Source: a virus. From it: DNA of 21,199 bases. Location: positions 1 through 21,199 of IMG/VR virus record IMGVR_UViG_3300033146_000224, one strand, 5' to 3'. Positions 2,024 through 7,874 of this stretch are shown one piece after another. The notes beneath the pieces were generated by a model. It did not search any database. It saw nothing but the letters and a program-made list of their open reading frames with translations, and was not told the DNA's origin. A program made the position numbers and the translations under genes. Each line of letters opens with the position of its first letter. Positions within the stretch are counted from its first letter, which is position 1.

Positions 2024-2326
2024 GGAACAGTAGCAGCTTATTTAGGCATGACCGTAGGTCAGATGATCGTAGCTGGAGCAGTAGTAGGCTCCGCTGTTGT
2101 AGCAGCAACTAATCAACCCAGTACTCCGAGTTTACCAGAAGTAACAGATCCAGTGGTAGACAAGACAGCTATGCAAACAGAAGAAGATACAAAGGACGCT
2201 ACCCTTGGTTCAGAGGAAGCGAAGAAAAGGAAGGCTAAAGGCAAAGCTCAGTTCCAAGTAGACCTTCCTACGCCAGTAGACACAGGCCTGAGTTCTGGTA
2301 CAGGGCAAACAGGAGTTCAACTATGA
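2021..2326 (+). CDS. T7 gp7.3-like virion protein (ATC start proposed; ATG at 2048)
   Basis: It encodes 92 residues from ATG 2048, or 101 from ATC 2021. The N-terminus is a Gly/Ala/Val-rich hydrophobic stretch (about 20-25 residues), followed by an acidic, Thr/Asp/Glu-rich linker and a basic KKRKAKGKAQF segment that ends in a Gly/Ser/Thr tail. T7 gp7.3 (99 residues), a small virion protein encoded just before the portal, has the same acidic-basic-Gly/Ser layout and the same map position, so an equivalent role is likely, although sequence identity is low. The longer form adds IGTVAAYLG, extending the hydrophobic segment, and would match the length of gp7.3. The stop overlaps the portal start (ATGA, 2323-2326). 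Confidence 0.65.
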   Translation: MGTVAAYLGMTVGQMIVAGAVVGSAVVAATNQPSTPSLPEVTDPVVDKTAMQTEEDTKDATLGSEEAKKRKAKGKAQFQVDLPTPVDTGLSSGTGQTGVQL

Positions 2327-3428
2327 GTGCTATATTCCAGACAGAACCTGGCTTTATTAAGCAGAGATATAATACCCTGAACGAGAAGCGGATACCTTAC
2401 GTAGACAGGGCTAAGGAGTACAGTAAGGTAACGCTCAGGTACATTATCCCAGACGATGAAGCTGCTGACACAGGTACGCAGGAATTTCAGAGAGACTTTT
2501 CATCTGTGGGAGCAGATAACGTGAACTTCTTAGCTAATAAGTACATGCTGACTTTGTTCCCGCCGAATAGATCTTTCTTTAAATTACAACTGAATGTATC
2601 GAATCAGACAGCAGAACACCTGGGGGTAACTACTGCTGAGATGGATGTTATGATGACTAAAGCTGAGAGAGAAGCCCGCTGGTTGCTTGAGAAGAAGCAC
2701 GGGAGAAGTACTCTCATAGATATTATTAAGCACCTGATAGTAGCTGGTAACGCCCTCTTGTACTATCCAGAAGACGGAAATATCCAAATGTACGCCCTGG
2801 ATCAGTACGTTATTCAGAGAAGTCTGGACGGTACAATTACTGAGATCGTTACTAAAGATAAGAAGTCCCTGGCTTCCTTAGATCTGGATACCAGAGAAGC
2901 TGTGCTAGCCGCTATGGATTACGGGGATACTATAGACTTTCATAAAACTAATGTTAATCTGTACACGTACATTCATACTAACCGTGACAACCCTGAGGAA
3001 ATGCTAGTAGAACAAGCTGTTGAGGGGGAGCCTATCAATACCCCTTTTGTTATTAAGAAAGAAAAGAACAGATGGATACCCTTAGCCTGGCAGAGAACTA
3101 GACGAGAGACGTACGGAAGAGGGTTAGTTGAGGATCACTATGGTTCCCTCTGGGCTATAGCTGTTCTATCTGAAGCTATAGTAACAGGTGCTGCTGTTAT
3201 GTCTGATATTAAATTCTTGGTTAAACCTGGATCTATCCTTGACGTAGCTGAGATGAATGCAGCAGCTAGCGGTACTTATCATGTAGGGGAACCTGATGAC
3301 GTAGCTCCTGTTGGGATTGATAAGGCTAGGGATCTTCAATTTATACAGGGTTTAATAGAGAAGTACGAACAGCACCTCGGAAAGGCCTTTCTTTCTCTTA
3401 GCTCACAAATGAGACAAGCAGAGAGGGT
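2323..3428 (+). CDS. Portal (head-tail connector) protein, exon 1
   Basis: This is the 5' exon of the portal protein (T7 gp8 family), the dodecameric ring at the head vertex through which DNA is packaged and ejected. It starts at ATG 2323 behind AGGAG, overlapping the previous stop. Visible family features include the N-terminal RYNTLNEKR helix, the NFLANKYMLTLFPPNRSFFKL segment, and near the exon end LSLSSQMRQAERV. The exon supplies 368 codons plus GT of a Val codon. Joined to 4207-4672 it gives 523 residues, against 536 in T7. Without splicing, the frame would read nine intron codons after Val and stop at 3459. The split falls inside the conserved AERV-TAEE motif. Confidence 0.95.
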
Positions 3429-4206
3429 TAACATAGTAGCTCTCTTTAAACTACTTTAAAACGGTGAAACTCCTTAGGGACAATACCGTGCTAATTGAAT
3501 CTTAAACTACGCAAAAGGATATAAACTTATGTACAGTAAGATACCATTAAGAATTGACGGCGTTAAATTGAAACACACCTATAGTATTGATACCAATGGT
3601 GTTGTTGTGAATGAGACAGATAATAAAATTTTAAAAGGGACTTCTATTAATAGGTTAAACAGATACGTAGACATTCACTTTGAAAAATTTTATAAACTTC
3701 ATAGATTAGTAGCGGAGCACTTTTTATTAAATCCACTTGATTATGATGAGGTAAATCATATTGATGGTAATAGGAATAATAATACCGCAGCTAACTTAGA
3801 ATGGTGTTCACATTCCGAGAACATGCTTCACGCTTATAGGACAGGTTTAAAATCTAATAAGGGGATGAACTCCCCTACTCGTATACTGCATGAAGAGCAA
3901 GTAAAGCAGATTTGGGGCATGCGTAAGATGAAGCTCACTGCTAGGCAGATACGTGACAGATTGAAACTACCTGTTTCTGTGGATTGCGTAAAATCAATAC
4001 GCTCTGGTAAAACTTGGGTGCATTTAACGTCTACTTTACCTTGATGCGGAATGAGTGTAACGACTATCCCATAAGGGAGTAGGGCTAAGTAGCTCGAAAC
4101 AAGTAGGCTCTAGTGAATAGAGCAAGATATAGTCTAATCTGCATGGTAACATGCAGCAGTTCATAAGAGAACGGTACAGGCTTAACGACCCTGTATGAAT
4201 ATAATG
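3429..4206 (+). ncRNA. td-like group I intron in the portal gene
   Basis: This is a 778-base group I intron of the T4 td type. P1 is a nine-base-pair helix between the exon end (3420-3428, ending in U) and the guide 3439-3447 (GCTCTCTTT), with the required U.G pair at the splice site. AGTA (3435-3438) can pair with exon 2 TACT (4207-4210) as P10. P3 is CTACTT (3451-3456) with AAGTAG after P7. P2 appears absent. The stretch ACGGTGAAACTCC..ACAATACCGTGCTAATTG closely parallels the td P4-P5 region, and the HNH gene sits where td carries I-TevI, in the P6 region. Downstream are P7 (GACTA/TAGTC), P8, P9 CTGCATG-GTAA-CATGCAG and the tail TGAATATAATG ending in G4206. Splicing restores the frame exactly. 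Confidence 0.93.
3529..4044 (+). CDS. Intron-encoded HNH homing endonuclease
   Basis: This encodes 171 residues inside the portal intron, starting at ATG 3529 behind AAAGGA. It is an HNH_3-type nuclease. H58 lies in KLHRLVAEHFL, and the core NHIDGNRNNN (76-85) with NLEW (89-92) and the following EN-x2-HA forms the beta-beta-alpha metal site that cuts DNA. The C-terminal part (about 120-165) has a helix-turn-helix look (LTARQIRDRL.., SVDCVKSIRSGKTW) that would bind the target. Its expected target is the intronless portal allele around AERV-TAEE, which would spread the intron to other phages. It is paralogous to the HNH protein in the capsid intron. The base composition is more AT-rich than the flanking exons, consistent with separate origin. 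Confidence 0.93.
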   Translation: MYSKIPLRIDGVKLKHTYSIDTNGVVVNETDNKILKGTSINRLNRYVDIHFEKFYKLHRLVAEHFLLNPLDYDEVNHIDGNRNNNTAANLEWCSHSENMLHAYRTGLKSNKGMNSPTRILHEEQVKQIWGMRKMKLTARQIRDRLKLPVSVDCVKSIRSGKTWVHLTSTLP

Positions 4207-4672
4207 TACTGCCGAAGAAAACAGGTTCAGGGCACAGGAGCTAGAACAGGCTCATGCTGGCGTGTTCTCTGCTTTAGCCCTCAGTATGCAGTATCCCTTA
4301 GCTACTTTGCTTTTAGATGAATTTGATGTAACACTTAAAGGATCCGAGATAGATCTGGTTATTGTATCAGGTCTGGATGCTATGGGTAGAGTATCAGATA
4401 ACGAGAAACTTATTCAGTTATTCCAGGATTTAGCAGGGTTACAGAATATACCAGAATCTCTTTTGCCTATATTCAAATTTGTAGAGACTGTTAAACTCTT
4501 AGCTAACGGGCGGGATGTTGACGTTGATAAGATAATCAAAACAGCAGAGGAGCAGGCTAAGGATGCGCAAGCGAATAAGGAAGCGACCAGCGCTGCTATG
4601 GCTGAAGAGGCAATGCTCAATAAAGCGTCACCTGAACAGCTTGCGGAAGGCATATCTCAAACAGAAACGTAG
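4207..4672 (+). CDS. Portal protein, exon 2
   Basis: This is the C-terminal 155 residues or so of the portal protein. The exon begins with T4207, completing the Val codon, then reads TAEENRFRAQELEQAHAGVF, which matches the conserved T7 gp8 segment (ERVTAEE..ELEQ..GGVYS) closely. The GTG at 4262 is an internal Val (from HAGVF), not a start. The tail end is Ala/Glu rich (about 4540-4672), as in related portals. The stop is TAG 4670-4672. Confidence 0.93.
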
Positions 4673-5594: not shown

Positions 5595-6419
5595 GTGTAG
5601 TTTGAAGAGTGTGAACTCAGGGGACACCCTTTTAAGGGCAATCCTGATCTTAGTTAATAGTTTGTTTTCTACCTTAGAAAGGAAAGAAAATGAACTTTAA
5701 AGAACTGAAGTACATAGCAGAATACCCACGTTATGCAGCAACACCTGATGGAAAGATTTATTCTTTCAAATCAGATCAATTTTTAAAACCAATAATGACA
5801 CCTAATGGTTATTATAAAGTAAGTTTATGTAAGCATGGTTCAACAAAGCAGATTTCAATACATCGAATTGTAGCGAGTCTCTTTTGTAAGAGAGAAGATG
5901 GTGCTACTCAGGTTAATCACATCAATGGTATTAAGTCAGACAATAGATACCAGAATCTTGAGTGGTGTACAGCTTCACATAATATGAAACATGCTTATAG
6001 TATGGGACTAGCTAAAGGAATTTCCAAATGGGGAGAATCTAATAGTTGTTCTAAACTTACTGAAGTTGAAGTTGAACAAATAATAACAGCATTTATGCAA
6101 GGTAAGTCGCAGAAACAAGTAGCAAAATTAGTAGGTGTTAATCTTAATACTGTTAGACAGATCACTAGTGGAAGAACATGGAGATCTGTGTCTAAACGGT
6201 TAGGTTATACTCCTAAATTTGGGTTTAAAGATAAATAATATAACGAGCTATTAACTAAGAGCAACGACTATTCCGAAAGGAAGTAGGGTTAAGTAACCCG
6301 AAGCGCACTCCACCCTTTGTAAGGGTGATGATATAGTCTAATCTGTATAGTAATATACAGACGCATATTCCTGTACAAGTATGCTGGATAGGGTTAACGC
6401 CCCTATTTGAATATAAATG
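5595..6419 (+). ncRNA. td-like group I intron in the capsid gene
   Basis: This is an intron of about 825 bases, similar to the portal intron. Visible helices are P3 GAGTGTG (5607-5613) with CGCACTC near 6304-6310, P4 TCAGG/CCTGA around a P5 stem, P7 GACTA (6266-6270) with TAGTC (6334-6338), P8 CACCCTT-TGT-AAGGGTG (6311-6327) and P9 CTGTATA-GTAA-TATACAG (6343-6360). A P9.1-like GCATA/TATGC hairpin follows, then ATAGGG/CCCTAT, and the tail TGAATATAAATG ends in G6419. The HNH gene lies in the P6 region. The 3' end is well supported. The 5' end (U5594/G5595) is set by protein continuity; a six-pair alternative P1 exists at 5579-5584 with 5597-5602. Confidence 0.85.
5690..6238 (+). CDS. Intron-encoded HNH homing endonuclease
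   Basis: This encodes 182 residues inside the capsid intron, ATG 5690 behind AAAGGAAAG. The N-terminus (ELKYIAEYPRYAATPDGKIYSFKSD, about 5-29) resembles a NUMOD4-type module. The HNH_3 core has H58 in IHRIVASLF, NHINGIKSDN (76-85) and NLEW (89-92) with HN-x2-HAY after it. The usual Asp of NHxDG is Asn79 here, a mild deviation seen at a non-catalytic or weakly conserved position. The C-terminus (about 121-165: KLTEVEVEQII, KSQKQVAKLVGVNLNTVRQI, SGRTW) is a helix-turn-helix of the NUMOD1 or repressor style. It is homologous to the portal-intron enzyme from VNHI through HAY..GL and again at the C-terminal SGxTW. The likely target is the intronless capsid gene. Confidence 0.93.
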   Translation: MNFKELKYIAEYPRYAATPDGKIYSFKSDQFLKPIMTPNGYYKVSLCKHGSTKQISIHRIVASLFCKREDGATQVNHINGIKSDNRYQNLEWCTASHNMKHAYSMGLAKGISKWGESNSCSKLTEVEVEQIITAFMQGKSQKQVAKLVGVNLNTVRQITSGRTWRSVSKRLGYTPKFGFKDK

Positions 6420-7277: not shown

Positions 7278-7304
7278 TTTAACTTAATGGAAAGGAGCCT
7301 AGAA

Positions 7305-7874
7305 ATGGCTACAAGAAAAATTACAGTATTGAACACGCAAGGAATTTATGATCATATCCATAAGTACATGAGTTACAACCCTGATACAGGTAGTATGACT
7401 TGGAAGAAAAGTACGGGAGGTGGTCAGACTCTCGGTGCAGAAGTAGGACATACTAATAGCAAAGGCTATAGGGGTTGTAAAGTTTGTGGTAGGTCTTATA
7501 AACTTCATAGACTTATATGGTTGTACCAAACAGGCAGCTTTCCTAAACATGATATAGATCATATTAATCGTAACAGGTCTGATAATCGTTGGTCTAATCT
7601 ACGGGATGTTAAATCTGATGTGAATGCCTATAACCATAAAGTCAGAAAAGATTCTAAGACAGGTATATCAGGTGTGAGTGTTACTTGTGATAAGTACAAG
7701 TTACCATATCATGTTAGGATAGCAGTTGATAATGAAGAGAAACACCTAGGCTTTTATAAGACTTTAGATGAAGCTGCTATGGTTCGGTATAACGCTGAAT
7801 GTAAATACGGACTTCATGAAGCTATGGAATATTCTTCTGCTCATCAGTACTTGAAAGAGCATAACTTACTATAA
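7305..7874 (+). CDS. Freestanding HNH-AP2 homing endonuclease
   Basis: This encodes 189 residues. ATG 7305 is chosen because AAAGGAG (7291-7296) sits eight bases before it; an in-frame ATG at 7287 overlaps that site and has none of its own. The HNH_3 domain (about 20-112) has KLHRLIWLYQTG with H68, HDIDHINRNRSDN (82-94) and NLR (98-100), followed by N-rich AYNHK. The C-terminal AP2-like DNA-binding domain (about 119-170) reads TGISGVSV-x6-LPYHVRIAVDNEEKHLGFYKT, with LDEAAMVRYNAECKYG after it. This architecture is common for phage HNH enzymes. It is not inside an intron: capsid ends at 7277 and gene 11 starts at 7942 in intact form. It lies next to the intron-bearing capsid gene and may cut near the same locus in rival phages. 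Confidence 0.92.
   Translation: MATRKITVLNTQGIYDHIHKYMSYNPDTGSMTWKKSTGGGQTLGAEVGHTNSKGYRGCKVCGRSYKLHRLIWLYQTGSFPKHDIDHINRNRSDNRWSNLRDVKSDVNAYNHKVRKDSKTGISGVSVTCDKYKLPYHVRIAVDNEEKHLGFYKTLDEAAMVRYNAECKYGLHEAMEYSSAHQYLKEHNLL

Follow-up and report, generated by a model that had tools for sequence, protein, structure and literature searches.

The window, by which we mean the whole 21,199-nucleotide stretch of viral DNA analyzed, encodes a T7-like portal protein in two pieces between positions 2323 and 4672. Excision of the 778 nucleotides that separate the pieces yields a single 523-amino-acid portal with MRQAERV/TAEENR at the join (Table 1). The insertion point falls inside the conserved ERV/TAEE motif of the portal, and the uninterrupted portals of other podoviruses align in one piece through the junction. 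The splice junctions at 3428 and 4207 given by an earlier reading of the sequence alone are correct, as the frame is restored and the homologues align across the join. The inserted segment is a group I intron of the IA subgroup with a P3/P7 pseudoknot core, and an open reading frame (ORF) for an HNH homing endonuclease lies in its L6.

Table 1. Features of the interrupted portal gene (all on the strand shown; positions are those of the window)
Feature	Position	Strand	Evidence
Portal (head-tail connector) exon 1	2323-3428	+	Pfam Head-tail_con 5e-38, phrog_449 5e-103
P1 5' strand, in exon	3420-3428	+	9 pairs with 3439-3447; splice-site pair U.G
AGG (Arg) codon touching splice site, footprint of intron-bearing portals	3424-3426	+	AGG/CGN counts
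Group I (IA-type) intron, 778 nt	3429-4206	+	Frame restoration, P1, covariation
P10 5' strand	3435-3438	+	Pairs with 4207-4210 (sequence)
P1 3' strand/internal guide sequence	3439-3447	+	Exon covariation across 10 portal introns
P3 5' strand	3451-3456	+	Pairs with 4101-4106; covariation
P4 (3461-3465/3485-3489), P5 (3471-3473/3478-3480)	3461-3489	+	Covariation
P6 5' strand	3490-3492	+	Pairs with 4054-4056; covariation in relatives
HNH homing endonuclease ORF, 171 aa, in L6	3529-4044	+	Pfam HNH_3 E 8e-8, phrog_59, I-HmuI 1u3e match
P7 (4062-4067/4129-4134)	4062-4134	+	Covariation
P7.1 (4068-4070/4075-4077), P7.2 (4082-4086/4091-4095)	inside P7	+	Covariation
P3' (4101-4106), P8 (4107-4111/4119-4123)	inside P7	+	Covariation
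P9 (4140-4145/4150-4155)	4140-4155	+	Part match to Rfam RF00028, covariation
Terminal guanosine of intron, G4206	4206	+	Sequence; portal frame restored by join
Portal exon 2	4207-4672	+	phrog_449 3e-23; joined protein

To assess the structure, 23 phage introns were aligned by their cores with the ORFs removed, and a 42-pair structure was scored on them. Paired cells amounted to 97.8% compared with 79.5% in shuffles, and 27 of the 42 pairs had changed on both sides, so the structure is supported far beyond chance. The covariation score was 0.551 versus 0.198, and 0.06-0.12 with the partners slid. P7.1 and P7.2 were paired in 100% of cases across the 23 introns. The portal intron has no P2. The nine-pair P1 and four-pair P10 that had been proposed to define the intron ends are both present in the window, with U3428.G3439 as the splice-site pair of P1, and P10 is shorter in certain relatives, with two pairs in Gaspode. 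Covariation in P1 reaches into the exon: in all 10 portal introns, a Glu codon (GAG or GAA) has a third base that matches the facing guide base (C or U). A covariance-model search had been suggested as a check of the ribozyme. Rfam model RF00028 found the P7/P9 part of the intron at 26.5 bits, below the gathering cutoff of 50, which is a detection threshold and not a biological defining feature. The score is low because the ORF splits the core and only the P7/P9 part is detected. Based on this anatomy, the portal intron is predicted to be self-splicing.

The HNH ORF is open and its motif intact, with residues invariant in the six lineages compared. It matches I-HmuI (PDB 1u3e) in sequence over the HNH region (2e-5). 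Its nearest relatives are the HNH enzymes of the same portal intron elsewhere, and the HNH gene is the normal cargo of the intron at the ERV/TAEE site. Nicking or homing activity can be predicted from the enzyme family, the optional presence of the intron, and the conservation of the HNH.

Searches of IMG/VR with the HNH, a core pattern, and an HNH alignment recovered relatives; a search of IMG/VR with the portal protein found no close portal relatives. The best DNA matches of the window are Phimunavirus genomes. Phimunavirus phages (Gaspode, PP90, Clickz, and others) have the same intron with an HNH ORF at the same portal codon, as does Pseudomonas phage Ep4. Their intron cores are 75-79% identical to that of the window while the portals are only about 30% identical, and in these genomes the insertion is annotated as split ORFs plus an HNH. 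Site, core, and HNH are also shared by IMG/VR contigs L032, L042, L127, L143, L144, L146, and L147 (L141 repeats L042 and L145 repeats L032). Together, at least nine distinguishable portal introns occupy the identical site, namely those of the window, Phimunavirus, Ep4, and at least six IMG/VR contigs. Contig L120 was rejected as a further carrier; its core is close, but the site reads CGT and the portal gene runs through it without a break.

In every comparison made with the window, the HNH is more conserved than the portal. The respective identities are 60% and 51% for L042, 60% and 34% for L127, 54% and 29% for Gaspode, 53% and 30% for Ep4, and 47% and 27% for L032. An HNH identity of 47-60% above a portal identity of 27-51% suggests the unit spreads by homing, though causes other than transfer could also produce this difference. 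The movement between distant phages proposed in the sequence-only reading is supported by the shared site, core, and HNH, and by HNH identity exceeding that of the portal.

The intron-bearing portals carry a footprint at the splice site. All 10 examined, including those of Phimunavirus and Ep4, have an AGG codon there, while the 14 intronless portals all have CGN. AGG pairs with the P1 guide of the intron, which reads GCCCU (or GCUCU). We joined the Gaspode portal exons as 250 + 250 nucleotides and compared them with intronless genomes. The joined exons match intronless CB5, PhiM1, and Peat1 in one piece. Over the 500 nucleotides, CB5 and Gaspode differ at two positions only, -5 and -3, which change CGT in CB5 to AGG in Gaspode, both Arg codons. 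PhiM1, Peat1, and Rambam have the same -5/-3 differences plus others. The intron is therefore present or absent among exons that are 97-99.6% identical, and it is optional within one genus.

As CGN is found in intronless relatives both within and outside the genus, the more parsimonious direction is acquisition of the intron along with AGG. One possibility, which we put forward tentatively and rate somewhat below even, is that CGN is replaced by AGG through a very short co-conversion tract of five nucleotides or slightly more, enabling the HNH-intron unit to home into portals mismatched to the guide. If so, short co-conversion would explain how one intron reached portals only about 30% identical. 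The footprint could instead reflect later selection for P1.

Taken together, the locus very probably holds a mobile phage IA intron in which ribozyme, HNH, and AGG codon form a portal-specific unit, with the T4 td intron only a cousin. In the pathway suggested by the anatomy, the guide would pair with the exon to form P1, guanosine would attack after U3428, and the exons would join at G4206/U4207 with P10 assisting. The HNH would cut or nick portals that lack the intron, close to the conserved ERVTAEE codons, and donor-templated repair would copy the intron together with its enzyme gene, possibly along with the splice-site codon. That databases annotate two portal pieces plus an HNH might instead be taken to mean there is no intron, with a free-standing HNH gene splitting the portal into two proteins. 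This is hardly credible given a covarying ribozyme with P1 at the exact junction, an excision that restores the frame, and the same junction in intronless genes. It is also improbable that mobility has been lost and the intron is inherited vertically with the portal, the HNH being a relic or serving the phage in another way. Most Phimunavirus records do keep the portal intron, and intron-encoded nucleases can help phages compete (PMC11620839). However, the open HNH with its intact motif in six lineages, its conservation above that of the portal, and the presence and absence of the intron among nearly identical exons all argue against such a loss.

The sequence-only reading had emphasized a close resemblance to the td intron, with a different enzyme at the equivalent site. 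The likeness was confirmed for P4-P5 and for the 3' half, the window core being 70% identical to that of T4 td over 155 core columns, and the portal gene does contain a td-type (IA) ribozyme whose HNH ORF takes the place of I-TevI in td. The two introns share the IA ribozyme, P7.1/P7.2, and an ORF in P6a; td differs in its GIY-YIG enzyme I-TevI, its P2 hairpin, and its location in thymidylate synthase. Among the matches listed, however, identities of the window core to introns of phages outside the portal family span 62-78%, with td inside that range, and the 78% is to an intron with an EndoVII-type ORF. We also built the core tree that had been proposed, using 64 cores sampled among the matches listed, a sample that the search pattern biased. 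In this tree the portal introns, with seven rows of which two are identical, form one clade with support of 99/92. Among the matches listed, this clade is nested with support of 99/96 in an 11-row set that includes EndoVII-type and ORF-less introns and excludes td, which groups with nrdD in a clade of its own (100/99).

The portal intron might nonetheless derive from td, or from a direct common ancestor, with I-TevI swapped for an HNH gene. The 70% identity of the cores and an ORF at the matching position speak for this, and an exclusive clade of portal introns and td is not rejected (AU p=0.18), although the best tree does not favor it and sets the portal introns apart. The nearer EndoVII-type and ORF-less introns among the matches listed, the separate td clade, the unexceptional identity to td, and the P2 present in td but missing here make this derivation unlikely. 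The relation to td thus seems generic, and td is not favored as a special relative. A single origin of all HNH-bearing introns was rejected (AU p=0.003). Since, among the matches listed, the 11-row set mixes HNH, EndoVII-type, and ORF-less introns, and since a single HNH origin is rejected, cargo has been swapped on this type of ribozyme. The exchange of endonucleases suggested earlier thus holds for the ribozyme type; a direct GIY-to-HNH replacement involving td is unlikely. One P7/P7.1/P7.2 pattern matches at least 119 IMG/VR stretches. With the same core this widespread in phage contigs, likeness to td is not a mark of ancestry, and the td-like cores in these contigs carry several enzyme types or none.

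L120, L006 (2842-3456), and L015 have cores near that of the portal intron with an EndoVII-type ORF instead of an HNH. The L006 ORF is a Pfam Endonuclease_7, and its intron adjoins a DNA polymerase gene. At 20 loci, including L023, L035, L048, L052, L104, L114, and L119, td-type introns have an ORF that overlaps the core. The starts of these ORFs (MKTPSQ, MTIPSQ, MVIPSQ) are encoded by P5-P4 of the ribozyme core. For most of them the stop codon falls within the conserved TAACGACTA belonging to the other half of the core, and such a gene thus overlaps the catalytic core at its start and at its stop. Pfam gave no match for one member, which contains a CxxC...DHxNN pattern.

IA introns that encode HNH enzymes had been described before, with I-PfoP3I, I-HmuI, and I-TevIII as examples. 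The IA2 intron in the DNA polymerase gene of Pf-WMP3 encodes I-PfoP3I, with both splicing and nicking demonstrated (PMC3428280). Like the intron of the window, it is found in a T7-like phage, has all helices except P2, and carries its HNH ORF in P6a; it differs in residing in a polymerase and not a portal gene. The T4/RB3 nrdB intron is a T-even IA intron with the HNH enzyme I-TevIII, the T4 copy of which carries a deletion (PMC2988022); it shares the IA type and HNH with the portal intron and differs in its gene. I-HmuI is the HNH enzyme of a Bacillus phage group I intron (PMC2988022), an HNH homing endonuclease like that of the window from the intron of another gene. We found no description of a portal group I intron in the literature. 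The nearest is the split head-tail connector gene of PP90, noted in 2018 (PMC6115819) in passages that do not describe it as an intron.

The portal family is an exceptionally clean natural test case for the mobility of introns. Within one genus, cultured phages differ, over 500 nucleotides of exon, by the intron and two bases of the codon that pairs with the guide. Both the length of exon that travels with a homing intron and guide mismatch as a block to invasion are testable here. Most phage introns lie in genes for nucleotide and DNA metabolism (PMC11878797), so the portal intron and the neighboring capsid intron add to the minority in structural genes.

This capsid intron is a second group I intron, in the major capsid gene at about 5598-6416, which RF00028 scores at 45.1 bits, just under the cutoff. 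It has its own HNH ORF (5690-6238), and IMG/VR contig L137 carries a relative of this intron and of its HNH (51%), apparently at the same capsid position. A free-standing HNH gene (7287-7874, phrog_99) is directly behind the capsid gene. A third group I intron (1-229, 87.7 bits with RF00028) starts near the beginning of the window and precedes a ribonucleotide reductase large-subunit ORF (280-1029). The window therefore has three group I introns within 6.4 kb.
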